Shown piece after piece: positions 1 through 26,056 of a stretch of DNA of 34,716 nucleotides. Numbering within the stretch: position 1 is the first letter of the stretch; each line of letters opens with the position of its first letter. The translations under genes and the position numbers were made by a program. The notes beneath the pieces are model-generated. The model saw only the letters and a program-made list of their open reading frames with translations, was not told the origin of the DNA and did not search any database. This stretch comes from a virus: IMG/VR virus record IMGVR_UViG_3300046012_000219, positions 1 through 34,716 of that record; one strand, written 5' to 3'.

Positions 1-1453
1 AATTCGCTTCGACCTCGAGCTGCGGGATCGCGGCGTTCTCGACGATCAGCGCCGGGATGCCGTCGCGGCCGTAGGCGCGCTCGGCGAGCTTCAACACGTC
101 GACGCGTGCGTGCAGGTCACCGGTGGCCGCTTGCAGCTGGCCGAGCTCTGCTTGTGCCGCGGCGATCTGTTCGAGCCGCTGCTCGGCCCGAGCGAGCTCG
201 GCGGCGCGCTGCTCGAGCGTGGCGCGGGTGTCGCGGACGGTGCCCTTCGCGATCGCGACGGCACGTTCCGCGACCGTCAGATCGCCGGCGTCGATGTTCT
301 CGGCGTCGATGGCGGACTGCTTCGCGTCGAGCGTGACGCCTGCCGCCGCGGCCTGTTCTAGGAGCGGTGTCCGTGCCGCCGCCAGCCGCTCGAGGTGGCT
401 GATCCGCTCGGCGAGCTCGCCCTGCTGTATGGCCGCGGCGCGCGCTGCGACGAGCTGGAGTTCGATCGGCCGCGGATCATCGAGCGCCGGGGGAATCTCG
501 ATCTGCTCGAGCTGCTCATGCAGGCCGGCGATCGCCTCGAGGTCCGCGGACGCCTGCGTGTCGATCTCCGCGGCGCCCTGATCGAGACCAGTCGCCTCGT
601 CACGGTAGGACTGCGCTGCCCGCGCCGCCGCTTCGGCACCGAGCGTCTGCCCGCAACGATCGCACGACGAGGCTTCGCCGATGTGGTCGTCGAGATGCTG
701 GGCCTTCGCACGGGCTTCGTTCGCATCAGCGTGAAGCGCGAGCGCCTGGTCGACCAGCCGGCCACGCGCGAGATCACGCTGTTCGATCTGCGCGGCGAGC
801 TCGTCACGCCGGCGACGCGCGTCGAGGACCGCCTGCGCCGCTTGGGTCAGATCGGCAAGCCTCGCCTCGAGGTCCCGGATCCGTGCGGCGTCAGCGGCGA
901 CCTCGTCGAGTTCGACACGGCAGTCGTCGAGCGCGGCTGCGGCGGCGTGCGTCTGGCCGAGCTGCTCGTGCAGCCGGTCGTACTCCTGCCGGGCTGCTGC
1001 GAGTTCGGCGCCCAGTCGCAGAAGCCGCTCGTTCTTCGCCGCGATCGCGGCGTGCTGCTCCTGCGCCTGCTCGAGCCTCTGCTCCGCGTCGACGACGAGC
1101 TCGGCGGCACCGTCACGCTGCCGGCGGACGAGATCCCGGGCGGCGATCGCGGCTGGCTGGTCGGCGACGGTCGCCGCGAGCCGCTCCTGGTTCGTCGACG
1201 CGGCGACCAGCTCACGCTCGACGTCGCGCAGCTCAGCGCGCGCACGGTCGAGCATCCGGTCCCACAACCCGAGGCCGAGGATCTCCGCGAGGATCGCCTT
1301 CCGATCGCGCGGCTGCGCCTCCGTGAACGCCGCACCGTCGCCCTGGCGGAGGAACGCTGACGCACGGAACGTCGTCCGCGACAGGCCGAGGGTCGTCTCG
1401 ATTGCCTCCTGAGTGGCCGTGGTCGTCTCGCGGGTGAGTGCAACCCACGTCAT
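1..1453 (-). CDS. sbcC: SbcC/Rad50-like ATPase, C-terminal fragment (runs off the window)
   Basis: This is the larger piece of a split SbcC (Rad50 family) protein, the ATPase partner of the SbcD nuclease in double-strand-end processing. Reading from ATG 1453 I checked every codon down to position 2 and found no stop, giving about 484 visible residues; the 3' end lies outside the window. Near the N-terminus is the Q-loop region (SAFLRQGDGAAF, Gln at residue 37). A long coiled-coil-like stretch rich in Glu, Ala, Arg and Leu carries a zinc hook CDRC (Cys264 and Cys267, encoded at 653-664). The visible end reads like the returning coiled coil and start of the second ATPase lobe (GRDGIPALIVENAAIPQLE). 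It has no Walker A; that motif is in the separate ORF at 1920-2225. Its ATG overlaps the stop of the endonuclease gene (ATGA at 1450-1453), so translation is probably coupled. The signature and Walker B motifs are expected beyond the window edge. Confidence 0.9.
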   Translation of the reverse strand, partial: MTWVALTRETTTATQEAIETTLGLSRTTFRASAFLRQGDGAAFTEAQPRDRKAILAEILGLGLWDRMLDRARAELRDVERELVAASTNQERLAATVADQPAAIAARDLVRRQRDGAAELVVDAEQRLEQAQEQHAAIAAKNERLLRLGAELAAARQEYDRLHEQLGQTHAAAAALDDCRVELDEVAADAARIRDLEARLADLTQAAQAVLDARRRRDELAAQIEQRDLARGRLVDQALALHADANEARAKAQHLDDHIGEASSCDRCGQTLGAEAAARAAQSYRDEATGLDQGAAEIDTQASADLEAIAGLHEQLEQIEIPPALDDPRPIELQLVAARAAAIQQGELAERISHLERLAAARTPLLEQAAAAGVTLDAKQSAIDAENIDAGDLTVAERAVAIAKGTVRDTRATLEQRAAELARAEQRLEQIAAAQAELGQLQAATGDLHARVDVLKLAERAYGRDGIPALIVENAAIPQLEVEAN

Positions 1454-1920
1454 GCGAGCACCGACCGATGCAGGCGCCTGTAGGCGCGCTGCTGGCAATC
1501 ACGGGAGCAGTACCGTTGCTTCGCTGCGTTCGGCCCGATCGTCTTGGGTTGGAAGTTCACGCCGCATTGAGGGCACGCGCGAAGGCGCATGGCGTGCTCG
1601 CGCCACCGTGTGCGCATCGCCAGCATCTCCTTGGCCCGCGCAGAACGGCGCGCACCGAGGTACGGCAGGAGTAGATGGAGAACCGCCTCGCCGCCGTCGC
1701 CATCGGCCTGCCAGCGCCAGAGGTGACGATGATGCGGCCGACGAAGAGTCCCGTCGCCGCGCACGGCGCCGATCCTGACGATCGCGGCGAACCTCCGCAC
1801 GATGTCCTCGTCCGCCATGACGAGCGCGACGTGACGCGCCGACCTTCCGCGGTGCCCGGTGATGCAGCCCTCGCCCTCGAAGAGGCCGGCCGCCCACGCG
1901 ATCTGCTGATCGCGCGTCAT
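1450..1920 (-). CDS. LAGLIDADG homing endonuclease inserted in sbcC
   Basis: A 156-residue protein with a LAGLIDADG-type motif at residues 9-20 (WAAGLFEGEGCI, with Glu17 at the expected catalytic acid position), followed by a basic region typical of a single-motif, homodimeric enzyme. The C-terminus has a possible zinc site: CPQC (Cys116, Cys119) and CSRDC (Cys138, Cys142). Such enzymes cut a specific DNA site and drive copying of their own gene into it. The gene fills exactly the gap between the two sbcC fragments: its ATG overlaps the stop of the N-fragment (TGATGA) and its stop overlaps the ATG of the C-fragment. No non-coding flank exists for a group I intron. The three reading frames differ, so it is not an intein. 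The most likely reading is a free-standing homing endonuclease gene that split sbcC. Confidence 0.87.
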   Translation of the reverse strand: MTRDQQIAWAAGLFEGEGCITGHRGRSARHVALVMADEDIVRRFAAIVRIGAVRGDGTLRRPHHRHLWRWQADGDGGEAVLHLLLPYLGARRSARAKEMLAMRTRWREHAMRLRACPQCGVNFQPKTIGPNAAKQRYCSRDCQQRAYRRLHRSVLA

Positions 1921-2225
1921 CAGTCCTCCCACTTCTCGAAGTCCAGCGTCGTTTTGCCTCTGCCGGCGGCGTTGTAGGTGCGCCTGACCCGGTAGAGCTC
2001 GCCGGCGTGCTCGAACTCGAGCTGCAGCTCGAGCCGTTCTTCGCCCGATGTGAGCAGCGGCGGCAGCTCGCCGCGGTCGGCGAACAGCGCGATATCGACG
2101 AGGTTCAGGATGGAGGACTTCCCGGCGCCGTTCGGTCCGGTCACGGCGACGCATCCGTCCGGAAGAGCGATGTCGAGATCCGGGAAGGTCCGGTAGTTCG
2201 TCGCGGTTAGATGACGGGGGTTCAC
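1920..2225 (-). CDS. sbcC: SbcC/Rad50-like ATPase, N-terminal fragment (Walker A)
   Basis: A 101-residue ORF holding the start of an SbcC/Rad50 ATPase lobe. It has the typical opening (NYRTFPDLDIALPDG) and a Walker A P-loop GPNGAGKSS at residues 30-38. It ends after the beta strand YRVRRTYNAAGRGKTTLDFE with KWED and a stop. The family continues directly into the sequence found at the start of the ORF beginning at 1453 (TWVALTRET, then the Q-loop), so this is one gene in two pieces with the homing endonuclease between. The GTG start at 2225 is supported by GGAGG at 2231-2235 with a 5-base gap. If functional, this fragment must associate with the C-terminal fragment to rebuild the ATP-binding lobe. 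Confidence 0.88.
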   Translation of the reverse strand: MNPRHLTATNYRTFPDLDIALPDGCVAVTGPNGAGKSSILNLVDIALFADRGELPPLLTSGEERLELQLEFEHAGELYRVRRTYNAAGRGKTTLDFEKWED

Positions 2226-2256: not shown

Positions 2257-2466
2257 TCACCAGCGACTCCATTCGATACGCGGAAGGTGCCGGAGCGACA
2301 GAATCAGGACGTGGTTGTAGGTGCGGATCGTCCAGCGAACGCGCTTCCCCCAAGTGATGTCGAGCAGGCGCGGCGTGCCGATGAAGATGCCGTTGCGGCC
2401 CAGCGTTACCCCGAACTGCTGCTTCGGCTTCGACGTAGGGCGGAGCGTTCTCAGCGAGCCAGTCAC
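2257..2466 (-). CDS. Small unknown protein between sbcD and sbcC
   Basis: A 69-residue basic protein starting at GTG 2466, overlapping the sbcD stop by GTGA. I do not recognise a family. It is rich in beta-branched and aromatic residues (GVTLGRNGIFIGTP, then WTIRTYNHVLILSLRHL), suggesting a small beta-sheet fold. Its location inside the sbcD-sbcC operon with coupled starts suggests a role linked to recombination or just co-expression. A longer upstream start (2544) exists in this frame but would lie deep in sbcD and is unlikely. Confidence 0.65.
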   Translation of the reverse strand: MTGSLRTLRPTSKPKQQFGVTLGRNGIFIGTPRLLDITWGKRVRWTIRTYNHVLILSLRHLPRIEWSRW

Positions 2467-3722
2467 GCGCCGACCTCCTGCAGATAACGAGCGCTCAGGT
2501 CCGCAAGCGGCGCACGATCTGGGATCTCGTTCGCGTCGCACCAAGCCTCGACCGCTACGAGCGGAGCGATGTCCTCGTCCATCCCGTCGACGCGTGCGCG
2601 CTCCGACCGGACGATGTCGCCCGTGATCGCGAACACCTTGTGGCAGCCGTCGAGGAGGGTGCGGAGCTTCGGCCAGTCGATCCGGCGTGCCTGCTCCTCC
2701 GTCGCGCGGTAGCGGATCTTCACGACGGCGTCGTCGAGCGGCATGTGTGTCGCGATCGCCGCGGCGACAGCATCCGTCTCGTCGACGCCGATCTCCTCAT
2801 GCCTGTCCGTCGTCAGGTCGATGTCCACCGTGACGAACCGGCGCGACTCGATCGGAACGAACCGTGCATCCGGCACCTCGCCGCCAACATCAAGCAGCCA
2901 GCACCCGTGCGGCGTCTTCGCCTCCCCGAAATCGACAGGCAGCGGCGACCCGGTATAGAAGAACGGGCTGCCCGACCTGGGTGCGCTCACGTCCATCCAG
3001 CCGAGCGCACCGTTGAAATCGGCCGCCTTGTGGATATGGCCGGCAACGACAGCGTCGAACCCGAGCGTGTTCAGCTCGTCTGCGTCAAGAACGACCTCGC
3101 GAAAGTCGTCGGTGATCGCGCCTGTAGGTGCGGATGCGCCGCTGATCGACCAGTGCGCGAGGAGGACGGCGGGAGTCTCGGCCGGGATCTCGGCGCGAAG
3201 CCCGCGCGCGGCTGCGACCAGCATCGCCGCCGCCTCCTCATGCAGCTGGTCTCGGTCGCCGCCGTCGCGTGCAGCGACGAGCAGACCGACGGGCGTCCAC
3301 GGCAGCGTCGCGATCGAGAAGCCTCCGGGGACGTAGGCCGGGCACACCTCGCCGTCGACGATGTGGATCACCTCGGGCCGCGTGGAGATGTGCCCGATTC
3401 CGCGCAACACCTCGGGTGCCTTCACGTCGCGCATGGCGGCGTCGTGGCGGCCGTTCCCGGTGATCCCGACGAACGGGATCCCCTGAACCTTGAGCTCGCC
3501 GAGCTGCTCCTGCGCGATCGCGTACATCTGCGGCGTGATCCGCTCAGCCGGACCGTCGAACATGTCGCCGGCGAACAGAACCGCGTCGACGGCGTTCTCG
3601 TTCGCGATCTGCACGATCATCGCGAGCACGTCCTGCTGATCGCAGAGCCGATCGCCCGGCTCGGCCCCATAGTCGGCGCCGGCGCCGAGGTGCAGATCGC
3701 CGAAGCACAGAAGCCGGGTCAC
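2463..3722 (-). CDS. sbcD: SbcD/Mre11-like metallophosphoesterase nuclease
   Basis: A 419-residue calcineurin-type phosphoesterase of the SbcD/Mre11 family, the nuclease subunit that works with SbcC at DNA ends and hairpins. Metal-binding motifs appear in the expected order: GDLHLG (Asp9, His11), GDMFD (Asp53), a GNHD-like motif written GNGRHD (Asn90, His93), AHWS (His190) and GHIHK (His229, His231). The usual motif is GNHD/E, so the two residues between Asn and His are unusual. About 190 residues after the last metal motif form the capping and C-terminal part, with partial similarity expected only. Start: GTG 3722 overlaps the upstream stop by GTGA. A start further upstream (3818) would overlap the previous gene and adds a low-complexity Arg-rich run, so it is rejected. 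Confidence 0.9.
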   Translation of the reverse strand: MTRLLCFGDLHLGAGADYGAEPGDRLCDQQDVLAMIVQIANENAVDAVLFAGDMFDGPAERITPQMYAIAQEQLGELKVQGIPFVGITGNGRHDAAMRDVKAPEVLRGIGHISTRPEVIHIVDGEVCPAYVPGGFSIATLPWTPVGLLVAARDGGDRDQLHEEAAAMLVAAARGLRAEIPAETPAVLLAHWSISGASAPTGAITDDFREVVLDADELNTLGFDAVVAGHIHKAADFNGALGWMDVSAPRSGSPFFYTGSPLPVDFGEAKTPHGCWLLDVGGEVPDARFVPIESRRFVTVDIDLTTDRHEEIGVDETDAVAAAIATHMPLDDAVVKIRYRATEEQARRIDWPKLRTLLDGCHKVFAITGDIVRSERARVDGMDEDIAPLVAVEAWCDANEIPDRAPLADLSARYLQEVGA

Positions 3723-3928
3723 GCGACCACCCGCAGCGAGTGCAGCTCGTCGACCTGCTCGACATACCACGCCTCGTCCTGCCACGACTCGTCGCCGTCG
3801 AGGTTCATTTCGACGCACGGCCGGCCGGTCAGGATCGCCGGGTGCTCACCACGTGTGACGGTGCCGTACCGGCCGTGGCGAGCGTCGGCGTGGTCGATCA
3901 CCTGGACGCGGGCGCCGACGTGGATCAC
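3719..3928 (-). CDS. Small KOW/SH3-like protein
   Basis: A 69-residue protein starting at GTG 3928, overlapping the previous stop by GTGA. The N-terminal half (ARVQVIDHADARHGRYGTVT) resembles a KOW/SH3-like small beta-barrel segment, in which a conserved glycine follows a basic turn. The C-terminal half is acidic with several tryptophans. It sits between a small ORF and sbcD in the recombination operon. Function is unknown; the SH3-like reading is by pattern only. Confidence 0.65.
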   Translation of the reverse strand: MIHVGARVQVIDHADARHGRYGTVTRGEHPAILTGRPCVEMNLDGDESWQDEAWYVEQVDELHSLRVVA

Positions 3929-4116
3929 GACGCCACCCCGAGCTCGCGGCACAGCTCGCGGTAGGACGCGACGGCCTGTCGGCGAAGTTCGGCGAGCTCC
4001 GGGTCGGTGACGCCGTCGACGATCTTGACCTCGAACTGTGGCTCGCGCTTCGCGTTCAGCGACACACGGATCGTCGACTTCGACTCGACCTGCTGCTCGT
4101 GCTCGGGCGCGCTCAC
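3925..4116 (-). CDS. Small unknown protein downstream of recT
   Basis: A 63-residue charged protein starting at GTG 4116, overlapping the recT stop by GTGA. It has a beta-strand-like middle (TIRVSLNAKREPQFEVKIVDG) and a helical C-terminus (ELAELRRQAVASYRELCREL). No family recognised. The tight coupling to recT and the conserved-looking composition support it as real. Confidence 0.65.
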   Translation of the reverse strand: MSAPEHEQQVESKSTIRVSLNAKREPQFEVKIVDGVTDPELAELRRQAVASYRELCRELGVAS

Positions 4117-5243
4117 GCTGCCGCCGCTTCCTTCTCGGCGAGCACCTGCTGGTACAGCTCCGGCTTGTGAACCCGGCAGAAATTCCACACCGCGGTCGAC
4201 ACGACCGGGTTCAGGTCGTCCTTGCGGAGCCCGTACACGAACCAGCCGTCCGACCCTTCGATGCCCGCGATCTCGCCGAGCGTCTTGCCGACGTGCTTCC
4301 CGGACGGCAACTCGAAGATCGCCGCCTCGTTCGCGGCGGCCTCGATCGCTGCCTGTTCGTCCGCGTTCAACTCGGGACGGTCAAGGTCGGGCTCGTCGTC
4401 TGGGCCAGGAGCCGCCGACACACCGGGGTCAGGTGGTGCGTCGGCGGCCTGCTGGCTGTCGCCACCCTGCTCCGCCGTCGGTGTCCCTGTAGTCGGGGGA
4501 ACCGTTGAGGGGGCGGCGATCTGCCGGGCCGGGGGAGAATCAGGCCCGTACAGACTCTCGATAGCTTCGGCCGGGTCGATGCTGACCGCGTCGACGATGC
4601 GGAAGAGCCGCTCGCGGTCGGCGTCCGTCAGTGGCAGCTCCTTTACGACGGCCTTCGCGGGCGTCTTGGCCCACATTTCGTCTGGCCACTTGTCCCAGAT
4701 CTGCTTGGTCGTCGCGATCTCGCGCCGCTTGAGGATGTCGACGGCGTACATCACCTTGATCTGGCGGCGGCCGTCCCGATGCGTCGCGATCGCGTATGCA
4801 GCGATGAGGTCACCGCGGTCGAGGCCGGGGCGCGGCAACCGATGCTGGATCGACGGCGGCTCCTCGGTGTACTCGAACTCGTCGTGCTCGCGCACGGACC
4901 GGTAGCGGAGCGCCCAGCCGAAGTCCGCGGCGGTCTTCTGCAGCCCGTACACCATCGGCTGGAACACGGCTTTGCCGCCACGCCCGACGATCGCGGCTTC
5001 CTTCCCGTCCGGCATAAGGCCGGCGGCGGCCGCCTGCACGAACGCGCGCATGATCGACTGCTGGTCGGGGATCTTCGCTATCTCCGCGTTCGTCATGATC
5101 GCGGTCGTCGCGATACGCGCGAACCGCTCCGGCGTGACGGTTGGAGGGAGCACCATCGCGATCTGCTGCTTGAACGCGTCACCGCGAACAGCCGCGACGA
5201 GCTGCTGCTCCGGGGTGCGCTGGACTACGTCAGTCCCAGTCAT
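4113..5243 (-). CDS. recT: RecT-family single-strand DNA annealing protein with C-terminal extension
   Basis: A 376-residue RecT-type annealase, which coats and pairs single-stranded DNA in phage recombination. The core (about residues 15-225) has hallmark features: TPERFARIATTAI, then SIMRAFVQAAAAGLMPDGKE, QPMVYGLQKTA and the later WAKTPAKAVVKEL. A linker rich in Pro, Ala, Asp and Gln (about 230-300) leads to a C-terminal segment (about 310-376) with FELPSGKHVGKTLGEI and GWFVYGLRK, resembling the small G-K-x-x-GKTL domain (DUF3820/ExoX C-terminal type) found on some nucleases. Start ATG 5243 follows AAGGAG. The partner exonuclease is usually RecE/YqaJ/lambda Exo; none is seen here, but SbcCD is in the same operon. 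Confidence 0.93.
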   Translation of the reverse strand: MTGTDVVQRTPEQQLVAAVRGDAFKQQIAMVLPPTVTPERFARIATTAIMTNAEIAKIPDQQSIMRAFVQAAAAGLMPDGKEAAIVGRGGKAVFQPMVYGLQKTAADFGWALRYRSVREHDEFEYTEEPPSIQHRLPRPGLDRGDLIAAYAIATHRDGRRQIKVMYAVDILKRREIATTKQIWDKWPDEMWAKTPAKAVVKELPLTDADRERLFRIVDAVSIDPAEAIESLYGPDSPPARQIAAPSTVPPTTGTPTAEQGGDSQQAADAPPDPGVSAAPGPDDEPDLDRPELNADEQAAIEAAANEAAIFELPSGKHVGKTLGEIAGIEGSDGWFVYGLRKDDLNPVVSTAVWNFCRVHKPELYQQVLAEKEAAAA

Positions 5244-5955: not shown

Positions 5956-6474
5956 ATGGCACGTCATATGTCGGCGACACAGCTCGGCGGGCTGAGTACC
6001 TTCCTTCTGGAGATGGCCTTGGACAAGGCGCGCATGAAGGGTCGGCTCGCCGCTGTCCTGCAAGACGAACGGAGGATCAGAGGTCGCGGCGATGCACGGC
6101 GGTTCCCACAGCCCGAAATGGCTCGGCTGCTCGGTTACTCGCTACGCCAGTACCAGCGGCTCGAGGATCCCGATGATGGGTCGCTTCCCACGTGGGACGA
6201 CCTCAACGAGATCCTCGCGAAGCTTGGCCGTCCGCAGTCAGACATCTTCGCCGAGGAGTCCGACGAGCCGCCTCTCAACGGAGAGTTGGGAGCTACTCCT
6301 GATCCGCCAGAGGCGGCAACAGTCGAAGAAACCCGCGATCTCCGGATCCTCGTCGATGCCCTGCTGCGTGACCGTGGCCTCGACCCGGAGGAGATCCTCC
6401 GTGACGCCCGGCTTCGGAACGGAGAGCCTGAACCAGGAGCTGAAGATCGCGAAGCTCCTGGCGAAGCTGCCTGA
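5956..6474 (+). CDS. HTH regulator (probable phage repressor)
   Basis: A 172-residue protein with a helix-turn-helix-like region at about residues 50-75 (RRFPQPEMARLLGYSLRQYQ followed by RLED), resembling XRE/Cro domains. The C-terminal half is acidic and helical. It is transcribed divergently from the minus-strand HTH gene across the shared operator. Start choice: ATG 5956 fits a leaderless transcript; ATG 5968, ATG 6014 and the ATG before KGRLAAVL are alternatives. The last 182 bases are opposite another ORF (6293-6637, minus strand), so the true C-terminus could be shorter only if a frameshift exists. Most likely the immunity repressor, by position. Confidence 0.75.
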   Translation: MARHMSATQLGGLSTFLLEMALDKARMKGRLAAVLQDERRIRGRGDARRFPQPEMARLLGYSLRQYQRLEDPDDGSLPTWDDLNEILAKLGRPQSDIFAEESDEPPLNGELGATPDPPEAATVEETRDLRILVDALLRDRGLDPEEILRDARLRNGEPEPGAEDREAPGEAA

Positions 6475-6660: not shown

Positions 6661-6981
6661 GTGACGGGTTCGAACGGCCACGTTGATCTAGGACGGTTGC
6701 CGATCGAGCAGCGCGCGCCGGCGCTCAGGAAGCTCCTCGGGCTCAAGCAGACGGATTTCGCGGCTCAGGTCGGAGTCAACGTTCGGCAAGTGAAGCGTTG
6801 GGAAGCCGGGGCGGTCCCGTCGGAGGAGTCAGCGCACGAGCTTGCGCGGGTCGCGCCGAGGAAGCTGAAGGCGAGGCCGGAGTGGTTCTTCATCCCGCGC
6901 GAGCGCCGCGAGGAGCGCGTCACCGAGCTCGAGCGGCGCGTCAACGATCTCGAGCGGCGGCTGCGGAAGGCTGGCCTGTAG
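6661..6981 (+). CDS. HTH protein with C-terminal coiled coil
   Basis: A 106-residue DNA-binding protein. The helix-turn-helix is clear: LRKLLGLKQTDFAAQVGVNV followed by RQVKRWEAGAVPS, a pattern shared by XRE and MqsA-like regulators. The C-terminal end (RVTELERRVNDLERRLRK) is a short leucine-zipper-like coiled coil suggesting dimer formation. I chose GTG 6661; the frame is open back to 6532, but the upstream part is Arg/Pro-rich and lies opposite the 6293-6637 gene. Its stop is directly followed by the ATG of the zinc-ribbon gene. Confidence 0.78.
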   Translation: MTGSNGHVDLGRLPIEQRAPALRKLLGLKQTDFAAQVGVNVRQVKRWEAGAVPSEESAHELARVAPRKLKARPEWFFIPRERREERVTELERRVNDLERRLRKAGL

Positions 6982-7224
6982 ATGGGGGCGCTGGCTGATT
7001 ACACGTACGGGCCGGTCAACCCGCAGATCGGTTGCCCACATTGCGGCAAGGCAGGGTCGGTCCACACAAAGGGCGTGAAGCTGAAGAAGGGTGTCAGCGG
7101 CGGGAAGGCCACCGGCGCTGTGTTGACCGGTGGCCTATCGACGCTCGCGACCGGCTTGTCGCGGAAGGAGAAAGCGATCCAGGCTCACTGCGACAACTGC
7201 GGCGTGACCTGGCATATCGGCTAG
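6982..7224 (+). CDS. Zinc-ribbon protein
   Basis: An 80-residue protein with two cysteine pairs, CPHC (about residues 18-21) and CDNC (about 70-73), forming a zinc ribbon around a Gly/Lys-rich hydrophobic middle (KATGAVLTGGLSTLATGLS) that could be a short membrane-associated helix. Small zinc ribbons of this type occur in actinobacteria and their phages. It begins right after the TAG of the HTH gene and is co-transcribed with it. Its last 131 bases overlap, tail to tail, an ORF on the minus strand (7094-7435). Confidence 0.75.
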   Translation: MGALADYTYGPVNPQIGCPHCGKAGSVHTKGVKLKKGVSGGKATGAVLTGGLSTLATGLSRKEKAIQAHCDNCGVTWHIG

Positions 7225-7435
7225 CTGTGCGGAGTGAGGCCCCTTGCTCCGAGCCGACGACTGACCGGACGACGAACGTGTCGCCGCGGCCGGCTTCGCG
7301 GCCTGCGGTGTTCCAGAAGCCGCCGATCAGGTAGTCGCCCTGTTCGCGGCCTTCGTCGTACTCGATAACCCCTGCGGGCACATCGCCGTGCTCGGAGTGG
7401 TAGACGGCCTTGTGGCCTGGCTTGACTGCTGCCAT
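7094..7435 (-). CDS. Small protein ending the lysis region, antisense tail
   Basis: A 113-residue ORF with a strong start: AAGGAGG 5 bases before ATG 7435. The first 65 residues look like a small beta-rich domain (KAVYHSEHGDVPAGVIEYDE, then YLIGGFWNTAG and DTFVVRSVVG). After that the composition turns Arg/Ser-rich and runs opposite the zinc-ribbon gene to a stop at 7094. The natural protein probably ended near 7220-7240, so the present tail may result from a junction or loss of a stop. Function unknown; last gene of the minus-strand late operon. Confidence 0.6.
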   Translation of the reverse strand: MAAVKPGHKAVYHSEHGDVPAGVIEYDEGREQGDYLIGGFWNTAGREAGRGDTFVVRSVVGSEQGASLRTASRYARSRRSCRSEPGSLSPSATSRSRASIGHRSTQRRWPSRR

Positions 7436-7445
7436 GTGAGCCTCC

Positions 7446-7673
7446 TTAGTCGGTGGTGAAGAGTCCTTGGGTTGCGGCGGCCTTGGCGCGGCTGCCGCGC
7501 AGGAACGCGTCGGCGAGCTTCCACGCGACCGCGACCAATGTGCCGCCGGCGGAGATGAGGACCTGGGCCTGGTCGTTGTCGACCCAGCCGAACGCGACGA
7601 TCTGGGTGACGATGAACGTGATCACGGCGGCGATCTGCGCCTGCGTCACGACTGGGGTTTTGCCTCCGAACAT
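7446..7673 (-). CDS. Holin-like protein (r1t type)
   Basis: A 75-residue protein with two hydrophobic segments (about residues 14-30, IAAVITFIVTQIVAFGW, and 40-55, ISAGGTLVAVAWKLADAF) separated by a polar turn (VDNDQAQ), and a basic C-terminal tail. This is the layout of the r1t-like phage holin family, which makes membrane holes that release or trigger the endolysin. AAGGAGG lies 5 bases before ATG 7673. It lies in the lysis cassette about 900 bases downstream of the endolysin gene. Confidence 0.78.
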   Translation of the reverse strand: MFGGKTPVVTQAQIAAVITFIVTQIVAFGWVDNDQAQVLISAGGTLVAVAWKLADAFLRGSRAKAAATQGLFTTD

Positions 7674-7690
7674 TGTGTCCTCCTTCAGGA

Positions 7691-8146
7691 CTAGGGGATA
7701 TTTCGCGCGCGGAGTTCGGCGGCGATCACCGATGTGCGTCCGCGTGCGAGGTCGAGCATCTGGCCGCGCTGGGTGTAGTCACGCCACGATCTGTGCGCCG
7801 TCAGTCCGGCGATCACGACGAGGGCGGCGGTGACGGTGAGACCTGTCCATGTCGTGCGGCCGCCCAGCGGGTTCGCTTGCAGCACCCCGACGATCCCGGT
7901 GAGGCAGATGAGCAGGCAGATCACGAGGCGCGTCCATTGCGAGTCGCGTCGGCCCTTGGCGGCGAGCCGGATCATCTTCCAGTGGCCCTGATGCATCGCC
8001 GGGTCTTTGCGAAGTTCGTCGACGAGCGCTTGGTCGCGGAACGAATCGCGGAGGTTCGCGGTCGTGACGGCGGCGCCGATGCCGCCGGAGGCGAGCCAGA
8101 GCGCCTCGAGGAGGGTCGCGTGCCACCAGTACGGGATGTCGATCAG
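7691..8146 (-). CDS. Three-span membrane protein with probable CTG start
   Basis: The obvious ATG (7996) gives a 101-residue protein with two membrane spans, but the frame is clearly coding further upstream: IDIPYWWHATLLEALWLASG and GAAVTTANLRDSFRDQALVD form an extra membrane span and helix. Just before that is a stop, and the only start-like codon is CTG at 8146, overlapping the previous stop as CTGA, like the GTGA and ATGA overlaps of its neighbours. From CTG the protein is 151 residues with three hydrophobic segments (about 6-27, 70-90, 98-118). Similar small membrane proteins occur beside actinophage lysins, so a holin or lysis role is possible. The CTG start is an inference. Confidence 0.65.
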   Translation of the reverse strand: MIDIPYWWHATLLEALWLASGGIGAAVTTANLRDSFRDQALVDELRKDPAMHQGHWKMIRLAAKGRRDSQWTRLVICLLICLTGIVGVLQANPLGGRTTWTGLTVTAALVVIAGLTAHRSWRDYTQRGQMLDLARGRTSVIAAELRARNIP

Positions 8147-8301
8147 AGCGAGGATTTCGCGTCCTCTTCATCGAGGACGGGGGGCCGATAAATCTCGACC
8201 TCTGCTTCGAGGACGGCGAGCCGTGCTGCCATCTCGACGATGCGGAGTGCGCTCGCGTCCAACGCGGCCATCACTTCTTCGTGCTCGTTCTCGGCCGTCA
8301 C
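8143..8301 (-). CDS. Small helical protein of the lysis cassette
   Basis: A 52-residue acidic protein starting at GTG 8301, overlapping the upstream stop by GTGA. Nearly all of it can form one amphipathic helix (ALRIVEMAARLAVLEAEVEI) followed by a short polar tail. No family recognised. The tight coupling to the membrane-protein genes on both sides supports it as real. Confidence 0.62.
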   Translation of the reverse strand: MTAENEHEEVMAALDASALRIVEMAARLAVLEAEVEIYRPPVLDEEDAKSSL

Positions 8302-8564
8302 ACGACGGTCTTTCTCTCGAGCGCTTCCAGGGCGCGTTGGGCGATTTCGGCCTGCTTGTAGACCTGCTCCAACGCCCGGTCGCGTTCTTCGCGCAGCCGG
8401 CCACACTCCGCCTCCGCTGCCACCCGCTGCTGGTTGTACGTCGAACCAGAGACGATCCAGCCCTTCCAGAAACCGATGACGACCGCGGCCAAGATCCCGG
8501 TCGGGCCAGCCGATGTAAGCCATGTCCATTCCGGCGAGGACACCTCTGCCAAGAGCCAGCGCAC
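8298..8564 (-). CDS. Small membrane protein with coiled coil next to the endolysin
   Basis: An 88-residue protein starting at GTG 8564, right after the endolysin TGA. It has one hydrophobic segment (TGILAAVVIGFWKGWIV, about residues 22-38) followed by a charged coiled-coil helix (residues 45-85). This layout is common for minor lysis proteins in actinophages and might work as a holin partner or a spanin-like factor, but the sequence alone cannot decide. Confidence 0.7.
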   Translation of the reverse strand: MRWLLAEVSSPEWTWLTSAGPTGILAAVVIGFWKGWIVSGSTYNQQRVAAEAECGRLREERDRALEQVYKQAEIAQRALEALERKTVV

Positions 8565-9332
8565 TCATCCGACCCTTACGAAGTGCGAGACCATCGACTT
8601 CGACCGTTTCTGCCGCATTACAGCGCCGCCGTTCGAGATGTCGGATGGGCCAGTGTTTCCGCCGACGTCGTCGAAGCTGCCGGCGGCTTGGTCGATCCAA
8701 CGTTCGAAGAACGACGTGTGCGCGAACGGGTCGCCGTGAAGGTTGAAGATGCAGAGGTCACCGGGCATCGGCGACCACACCTCGCGACACTTATTGACGC
8801 CCGCGCGCGCCCATCCGTAGATCTCTTCGCATGACGCAGTGCGGAACTTCGACCAGCCCGTATGAGCGAAGCAGTAGGACTCGAAGATCGCGCACCAGAA
8901 GACGCCGTTCCAGCCAAACCATTCGCCGTATTTCGTTCGGTTCGACCCGTACGGAGACTCGTGGTTGCCGATCTCGTTGACCGCGAACGCGAGCGCTTTC
9001 ATGCCGGGCGTCTTTGTCGCTGCCGCGATCCGTTGCGCACGCCGCGCGCGGTACGCATCGGGCAGAGGCCGCCAGTCTTTCGGCCGCAGGTACTCGTACA
9101 GCGTCTGCCCGAACACGCGGTCGCACGCGGAGGTCGGATAGCCAACCCAGTATTTCGCGCTCTTCGTCGCTGCCGCGGTCGCAGGACCGTAGTCGCCGTC
9201 GACCTTGCCGTCCTTGTAAGGCGCGAGACCGTCGAAGCGGCTGTGGCCTGCGAGAAGGTATTGAGCATCCCTGACGCGTGGGCCGCGCATGTGCGGCGTC
9301 GTGAGAAGAAGCGGAGTATCGAACTCCTTCAC
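8565..9332 (-). CDS. Endolysin with CHAP/amidase-type cysteine peptidase domain
   Basis: A 255-residue cell-wall hydrolase. Residues 1-85 resemble a peptidoglycan-binding domain (RDAQYLLAGH, then KVDGDYGPATAAATKSAKYW). Residues 110-255 are a CHAP/NlpC-like catalytic domain: FWCAIFESYC with Cys147 as the likely nucleophile, FAHTSFFE with His205 as the base, and a later GGNTG segment near residue 225 where the family usually has EGNT. It releases phage by cutting the wall peptide or amide bond. Start GTG 9332 is supported by GGAGG 5 bases upstream. The domain order (binding first, catalytic last) is reversed from many lysins. Confidence 0.88.
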   Translation of the reverse strand: MKEFDTPLLLTTPHMRGPRVRDAQYLLAGHSRFDGLAPYKDGKVDGDYGPATAAATKSAKYWVGYPTSACDRVFGQTLYEYLRPKDWRPLPDAYRARRAQRIAAATKTPGMKALAFAVNEIGNHESPYGSNRTKYGEWFGWNGVFWCAIFESYCFAHTGWSKFRTASCEEIYGWARAGVNKCREVWSPMPGDLCIFNLHGDPFAHTSFFERWIDQAAGSFDDVGGNTGPSDISNGGAVMRQKRSKSMVSHFVRVG

Positions 9333-24970: not shown

Positions 24971-26056
24971 TCAGACGGTGTCAGGGGCGGGCTCGAGCGC
25001 CTGAACGATCGGCTTCGGCCGCGCGCGCCGGTTCTTAAGCCGCAGCGCTGGGCGCTCGACGAGGAACCACGAGACGGCCACAGCGATCGCCAAGAGCGCG
25101 TATTCGACGGCGTACTCCTTCGGTTTGCTCGCCCACCGCTCGTGCTGAACCCACTGGAAGATCGGGAAGTGGAAGAGGTAGATCCCATAGGAGACGCGGC
25201 CGATCCAGACGAATGGCGTAAACGCGAACAGCGCGGACAGGGTGCTGCCGTCGGAGACCATCAGATGGCCGATCAGTACGGCAGAGGCGATCCCGGCAAC
25301 GGTGAGTCCGCCGTAGAGGGCGAAGTGGCCCTCGGATCCGTTCTTGGTCGCTGTGCCAATGACCACGAGCGCGGCGAGCGCGGCGAGTGCGAGCCATCCG
25401 GCAGGTTCGCGGCGCAGCGACGAGAGGCCGCCCCGCAGATAACCGACAGCAAGGAGTGCTCCGATGAGTAGCTGGTCGGTCTGGGAGATCAGCCAGTCGG
25501 GAACGCCTCGAACGTCGCCGGCGGTCATTGCAGCTCGGGACACGATCGCCAGGATGATCAGCACGGGAAGCGCTTTGCCGAGGAGCCGCCGCGAGGCGAG
25601 GAGCACGAGGAGCGCGGGCCAGAGGAGATAGAACTGCTCCTCGACAGCGAGCGACCACGTGTGGGCAAGAAAGCCGAGCGGATGCCCGAGCGCGGCGACG
25701 ATGTTCGCGACGTAGAAGAGCGCGGCCGGGATGGAGTACCACCTGCTGATGGAGACACCATTGTTGGCGCCGACGTACACGTTCGGGAGGAGCGCGACGA
25801 GCGCGAGCGCGAGAAGGAGCGGCGGGATGAGCCTGAGCGCCCGGCGCGCGTAGAAGCCAGCGAACCAGACTTTCCCGCGTGCCTCGAGCTCGACGAGAAG
25901 GAGAGCGGTGATCAGGAAGCCGGACAGCGTGAAGAAGATGTTCACGCCGTAGCCTCCGCCTTCGGTATGGGGGAACGAATGAGTCACAAGGACTAGGCCG
26001 ATCGCGAGAGCGCGTACGCCGTCAAGCGCTGGCTCGTAACGAAACCGCGGCTGCAC
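24971..26056 (-). CDS. Acyltransferase family 3 (OafA-like) membrane protein
   Basis: A 361-residue integral membrane protein of the acyltransferase-3 family, which moves acetyl groups onto surface sugars. Clear signs: LDGVRALAIGLVLVTHSF (Arg15, His26) at the start, then VNIFFTLSGFLIT at residues 39-50, YARRALRLIPPLLLALALVA (the conserved RR), WSLAVEEQFYLLWPALLVLL with the family's EEQFYLLWP, and about ten hydrophobic spans. It ends in a basic tail. In phages such genes modify the host surface (serotype conversion) or exclude other phages. It begins at GTG 26056 and has no strong ribosome binding site. Confidence 0.92.
   Translation of the reverse strand: MQPRFRYEPALDGVRALAIGLVLVTHSFPHTEGGGYGVNIFFTLSGFLITALLLVELEARGKVWFAGFYARRALRLIPPLLLALALVALLPNVYVGANNGVSISRWYSIPAALFYVANIVAALGHPLGFLAHTWSLAVEEQFYLLWPALLVLLASRRLLGKALPVLIILAIVSRAAMTAGDVRGVPDWLISQTDQLLIGALLAVGYLRGGLSSLRREPAGWLALAALAALVVIGTATKNGSEGHFALYGGLTVAGIASAVLIGHLMVSDGSTLSALFAFTPFVWIGRVSYGIYLFHFPIFQWVQHERWASKPKEYAVEYALLAIAVAVSWFLVERPALRLKNRRARPKPIVQALEPAPDTV

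Follow-up and report, generated by a model that had tools for sequence, protein, structure and literature searches.

A phage sbcC gene in two pieces with a LAGLIDADG homing endonuclease gene between them

Phage genes split by homing endonucleases

The splitting of phage genes by homing endonuclease genes (HEGs) is an already known phenomenon. The nrdA gene of Aeromonas phage Aeh1 is split by mobE, and the split enzyme was demonstrated to be active (PMC2988022; PMC3653736). HEG-associated splitting has also been described for the T4 topoisomerase genes, with mobA, and for gene 43 of Aeromonas phage 25, with a seg gene; in these cases the pieces reassemble (PMC2988022). A related arrangement is found in actinophage DNA methylase genes, where the ShiLan HNH element and a lone LAGLIDADG endonuclease each lie inside the host gene in one open frame (PMC11855218, PMC9957025).

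Here we describe a split sbcC gene at the left end of a 34,716-bp stretch of viral DNA (“the window”), which is the complete IMG/VR record IMGVR_UViG_3300046012_000219, classed as linear and probably a fragment. The window carries tailed-phage genes (portal, capsid, tail and endolysin), and the relatives of its portal among sequenced phages are actinophages. As in Aeh1, a free-standing HEG lies in a conserved enzyme gene that has no detectable intron or intein and is left as two coding pieces. However, mobE is an HNH enzyme of a T4-like phage and interrupts ribonucleotide reductase, whereas the HEG described here is of the LAGLIDADG class, resides in tailed-phage contigs that resemble actinophages, and interrupts the Rad50 ATPase head; moreover, unlike in Aeh1, two non-sister lineages are split at one site. 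The enzymes at the T4 topoisomerase genes and phage 25 gene 43 also differ in class (HNH and GIY-YIG) and in target, and the reassembly known there is what we would expect of the sbcC pieces. The methylase inserts share with the window the lack of a detectable intron or intein, but they leave the frame open and the host protein is one chain, whereas in the window stop codons separate the pieces and there are new start codons. A Rad50 head built from two chains has a parallel in the Pyrococcus furiosus structures 1f2t and 1f2u. Those chains correspond to an N-half and a C-half and omit the coiled coil (1f2t_A matches residues 8-129, and 1f2t_B residues 619-723, of the intact SbcC of contig L050), whereas in the window the break falls within the N-lobe, after residue 101 or so. 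The sbcC/Rad50-head target, the LAGLIDADG class and the probable double invasion look new; a search of the available literature turned up no account of a split SbcC or Rad50.

Anatomy of the split sbcC locus

The left end of the window is occupied by recT, sbcD, a small open reading frame (ORF) and the split sbcC, all on the minus strand. The features are as follows:

4113 to 5243, minus strand: recT, single-strand annealing protein (Pfam RecT, 3.1e-23)
2463 to 3818, minus strand: sbcD, Mre11-like nuclease partner, upstream of sbcC (Metallophos, 1.1e-8; PHROG 100, SbcD-like, 5.9e-29)
1920 to 2225, minus strand: SbcC N-piece, 101 aa, GTG start, Walker A GPNGAGKSS (Pfam AAA_23, 3.3e-12); MNPRHLTATNYRTF...GPNGAGKSS...TTLDFEKWED*
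1925 to 1930, minus strand: ribosome-binding site of the HEG, GGGAGG (duplex with the 16S tail, -11.7 kcal/mol)
1918 to 1922, minus strand: junction 1, TGATG, where the N-piece stop overlaps the HEG ATG (from the sequence)
1450 to 1920, minus strand: HEG, single-motif LAGLIDADG, 156 aa (PHROG 5046, 4.5e-19)
1450 to 1453, minus strand: junction 2, ATGA, where the C-piece start overlaps the HEG stop (from the sequence)
2 to 1453, minus strand: SbcC C-piece, ATG start, Q-loop FLRQGD, hook CDRC (PHROG 77, SbcC, 2.7e-30); MTWVALTRE...FRASAFLRQGD...CDRC...GRDGIPALIVENAAIPQLE, 484 aa visible before the contig ends at base 2

An earlier note, made from the sequence alone, had described a 101-residue ORF with a Walker A motif, a LAGLIDADG gene and an ORF with a Q-loop and CDRC, joined by stop/start overlaps. 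All three ORFs and both overlaps are present at the coordinates given above, and the observation of a split sbcC is confirmed. The features that define SbcC/Rad50 are divided between the pieces, with the two N-lobe motifs falling on either side of the break (Walker A in the N-piece, Q-loop in the C-piece), together with a CxxC zinc hook in the coiled coil (CDRC, positions 364-367 of the joined sequence; the cysteines are invariant) and an SbcD/Mre11 gene as neighbour at 2463-3818, although the listed start of that ORF may be placed too far upstream. The record ends inside the C-piece, a point absent from the earlier note, placing the ABC signature, Walker B and H-loop outside the window.

The two pieces are continuous on a single SbcC profile, since the match of the N-piece to PHROG 77 stops at profile position 386 (residue 85 of 101) and that of the C-piece starts at position 403 (residue 5). 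The joined pieces also align through the joint, without a gap, to the SbcC of a Moorella phage, in agreement with the proposal that the parts join where the family is continuous. The N-piece, the HEG and the C-piece are each in a different reading frame.

Uninterrupted relatives and the site of the break

The earlier note looked to uninterrupted sbcC alleles in related phages as a check on its reading, and such alleles exist. An alignment-based scan for sbcC found 70 loci, whereas neither a strict DNA pattern for the Q-loop nor searches of viral contigs with the individual sequences of the three ORFs gave any match. The contig L050 carries an uninterrupted sbcC, an open frame of about 732 aa, in the same order recT-sbcD-sbcC as the window. 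Its product is 48-50% identical to the whole SbcC sequence of the window; the N-piece is 65% identical to its residues 2-98, and the C-piece 47% identical to its residues 108-586. The gene is also uninterrupted in L008-L014, L173, L178, L179 and Chloroflexi genomes, and the HEG of the window thus lies between pieces of a gene that is continuous elsewhere.

Intact relatives vary in length exactly at the break, between TTLDFE and W.PLTRE. The N-lobe of L050 was modelled (pLDDT 89) and resembles Rad50 and E. coli SbcC in fold; residues 91-99 form a strand, 100-108 a loop and 109-111 a strand. As modelled, the break is therefore in a loop of the ATPase head that tolerates change, and because this loop lies between two β-strands, whole secondary-structure elements would stay in each piece.

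A different kind of disruption is seen in a Chloroflexi metagenome-assembled genome (L200, JABFGC010000002.1, 5064-5591), where a chromosomal sbcC looks frameshifted and has no HEG. It has a 175-codon ORF followed downstream by further pieces in other frames, and reflects either an assembly error or a true break.

A second split sbcC and the number of invasions

A second contig, L032 (IMGVR_UViG_3300005445_000009), has the order sbcD, N-piece, HEG, C-piece and is split at the same site as the window:

6001-6315: N-piece, 104 aa
6312-6926: HEG, 49% identical to the window HEG
6923-8779: C-piece, 618 aa, complete, with ABC signature (FSGGER), Walker B (LLAIDEP) and H-loop (SHHP)

The finding of the same architecture in an independent metagenome rules out an assembly or sequencing artefact, and this second, independent occurrence also excludes a chance arrangement. 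The same three ORFs thus occur in a relative, and uninterrupted homologues exist as well, as the reading of the earlier note demands.

Evidence on the number of insertions came from phylogenetic analysis. In a maximum-likelihood tree, the window sbcC is sister to the intact gene of L050 (support 99/97), while the L032 sbcC is placed elsewhere, with the intact gene of L011 as its nearest relative. Monophyly of the two split genes was rejected, at a cost of 48.6 log units (AU p = 0.0003; p = 0.003 in the first data set), and L050 is nearest to the window gene whether the N-part or the C-part is considered. Given that the split genes are not sisters, the site has probably been invaded twice, and one HEG lineage probably entered the same sbcC site at least twice. 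A variant of this history is that a single ancient insertion was inherited vertically and lost precisely in the intact relatives. The position and the frame relations of the insert are the same in the window and L032, and the two HEGs are mutual nearest known relatives (55% identity over the core domain, with weak support), as a single insertion would predict. However, that history requires several precise losses among the interleaved intact lineages (L050, L011-L014 and L008-L010), and the tree rejects monophyly of the split genes. We therefore favour two invasions over one old insertion followed by several exact losses, which is possible but less likely; we would give it roughly one chance in five.

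The endonuclease

The HEG of the window has the motif WAAGLFEGEG, including the acidic residue that closes a LAGLIDADG motif, and a zinc-finger-like CxxC...CxxxC at its C-terminus. Across 32 aligned sequences, W9, A11, G12, L13, E15, G16 and G18 are invariant and E17 is nearly so. Profile matches are uneven: Pfam LAGLIDADG_3 gives 1.3e-3 only, under the Pfam cut-off, while the strong match noted above is to PHROG 5046, which carries the name “HNH”. An AlphaFold model of the HEG (pLDDT 91) is matched by Foldseek to I-CvuI (3e-6) and I-CreI (2e-4), with TM about 0.54, and this model supports a LAGLIDADG fold of the I-CreI type. Single-motif LAGLIDADG enzymes work as homodimers.

Annotated relatives of the HEG in Microbacterium and Arthrobacter phages are named either LAGLIDADG or HNH endonucleases and are 29-41% identical to it. 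These free-standing PHROG 5046 genes, and an HEG in a group I intron of phage LittleE, belong to the same endonuclease family, but their settings are intergenic or intronic, whereas the window HEG lies between two pieces of one gene. Among 80 viral loci with related HEGs, most of the HEGs sit between genes, and no interrupted sbcC was found besides L032 (= L087). A search for the HEG in about 300 genomes from the phylum to which L178 belongs gave no match, but it had no positive control and so says little. That related HEGs occupy one site in two sbcC genes that are not sisters is an indirect hint that the enzyme may cleave empty sbcC alleles and home into them.

Related sequences are found in three other settings. 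In L088 (IMGVR_UViG_3300045391_001067, 3880-4400), a related HEG lies at the extreme end of another gene, whose last codons, QDRLP* (CAGGACCGATTGCCTTGA), overlap the TTG start of the HEG. The HEG has a synonymous version of this ending, VQDRLP* (CAGGACAGGCTTCCGTGA), at its own end, as though it had brought along a recoded tail to restore the host gene. In a Miltoncostaea oceani megaplasmid, one unannotated open frame (L007, 4440-5320) encodes a pair of LAGLIDADG domains from this family. Finally, about 1.1 kb upstream of the intact sbcC of L173, positions 3689-3856 match the C-terminal half, with the zinc finger, of the L032 HEG (39%).

Junctions and expression of the three ORFs

The joints of the window are formed by overlapping codons, GACTGATGACG at the first and CGCATGACG at the second. 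L032 has a GTGA overlap at both sites, as well as at its joint between sbcD and the N-piece, and the frame relations at both HEG joints are identical to those of the window. Both HEGs start RTGACGCG, the TGA of which terminates the upstream frame; the window alone has an extra TGA one codon before it. Both HEGs end RTGA, with RTG serving as the start of the downstream frame.

The predicted ribosome-binding site of the HEG, GGGAGG, falls within the last codons of the N-piece (W-E-D/E; W-E-D in the window). Its duplex energy, and the corresponding value for L032 (-11.5), are stronger than the -11.3 kcal/mol that marks the best 1% of the window background. The C-piece ribosome-binding site is weak in both cases (-7.0 and -7.9), so that C-piece translation is likely coupled to the HEG stop.

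The evidence is most readily explained by a model in which sbcC was split by a free-standing HEG and its pieces, once translated as separate proteins, come together again as a working SbcC ATPase; we consider this model likely, at rather better than two chances in three. A free-standing LAGLIDADG HEG would have inserted into phage sbcC and broken it in two within a surface loop of variable length that joins two β-strands in the N-terminal ATPase lobe. The RTGA at the HEG start codon would close the upstream frame, and the RTGA at the HEG stop codon would open the downstream one. One message would then yield three proteins by coupling at the overlapping stops and starts, with HEG initiation from the GGGAGG inside the final N-piece codons of sbcC itself. 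The two SbcC pieces are expected to pair non-covalently, each bringing whole structural elements, and together with SbcD would form a working SbcC ATPase, while the endonuclease would spread by cutting uninterrupted sbcC alleles. A more far-reaching proposal is that a LAGLIDADG HEG lineage has specialised on one loop of the Rad50 head, with a two-piece head arising at least twice, overlaps replacing splicing, and sbcC codons acting as the ribosome-binding site. We put this forward tentatively, as a little short of an even chance.

Alternative explanations

Several alternatives would restore a continuous SbcC. An intein was rejected since the insert is out of frame with its flanks and stops lie between the pieces, and an out-of-frame element of the ShiLan type was rejected since the host frame is closed within the insert by three stops in the window and five in L032. 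A self-splicing intron requires more discussion, given that LAGLIDADG genes often travel in introns and that a related HEG sits in the LittleE group I intron. A systematic check also found in-frame splice-site pairs fitting the loose T|...G| rule at both junctions; these exist because the loop tolerates length change, and with such pairs present, splice-site rules alone do not decide against an intron. However, a permissive Rfam search for group I and group II introns, up to E = 5, found nothing in the window or at the L032 split locus, while the same search detected the LittleE intron at 2.3e-5, and a group I or II intron was rejected on these grounds. Moreover, nearly the whole 467-nt insert codes for the endonuclease, leaving no room for a separate ribozyme core, and the RNA folds of the insert (z = +0.46 and -1.05) are not clearly stabler than shuffled sequence. 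It is thus improbable, at a little under one chance in ten, that the HEG lies in a degenerate or unrecognised intron and that continuous SbcC is made from spliced RNA. The earlier claim that the insert is neither an intein nor a typical group I intron is supported at the level of sequence, as is the reading of an HEG-split sbcC. Programmed bypassing or frameshifting could also fuse the pieces into one polypeptide, since ribosomes hop 50 nt in phage T4 gene 60. We know of no precedent for ribosomes hopping some 470 nt across a gene that is itself expressed, and the host-frame stops and the start codons of the C-piece in both the window and L032 further argue against this mechanism, which we consider exceedingly unlikely.

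A different possibility is that the insertion inactivated sbcC, leaving a recent pseudogene of a dispensable gene and the HEG as the sole functional product. Insertion of an HEG without a splicing element would be expected to damage the gene, and many such phages seem to lack sbcC (five of six portal-related contigs show no match). Conserved residues were compared between split and intact genes. The window gene has lost 0 of 23 family-conserved residues in the N-piece and 2 of 44 in the C-piece; L032 has lost 1 of 23 and 4 of 44, and 0 of 38 at the C-piece end. Intact genes have lost 0 to 6, 2 to 10 and 0 to 15, respectively, over similar numbers of positions, and relative-rate counts for each split gene against its intact neighbour are equal within noise. 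A visibly degrading pseudogene was rejected on the basis of these data. While the split genes look like functional genes, a gene that was broken recently would look alike; contig fragments cannot date the insertions, and the absence of decay could thus reflect a recent break. The two separate split cases make a recent break less likely. In addition, exact stop/start overlaps are kept at both junctions, and all C-lobe motifs are retained in L032. Inactivation is therefore unlikely, at about one chance in six, and SbcC probably still works as a two-piece enzyme, as judged from the pattern of conservation. No second sbcC was found in the window contig or the L032 contig; both may be incomplete, so another SbcC could lie outside them.

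Significance and other genes of the window

After phage ribonucleotide reductase and topoisomerase, sbcC provides another natural experiment in which a selfish endonuclease splits a conserved enzyme without an intron or intein. That the same gene was probably hit twice at the same site raises the question of what makes this site tolerable, with the length-variable loop and the internal ribosome-binding site as candidate features. The arrangement suggests a route to a harmless insert without splicing, in which stop/start overlaps are carried at both ends. If the pieces assemble, they would offer a naturally split Rad50 head in which to follow the ATP-driven shape change of SbcCD/Mre11-Rad50.

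Two further genes of the window are of interest. The small ORF between sbcD and the N-piece (2257-2466, minus strand, 69 codons) has no family match and overlaps the sbcD stop (GTGA); L032 lacks such an ORF, and sbcD and the N-piece overlap directly there. Between the tail-fibre and capsid genes, positions 24971-26056 on the minus strand encode an O-antigen acetylase-like protein (PHROG 6705, 2.6e-48), which possibly modifies the host surface.
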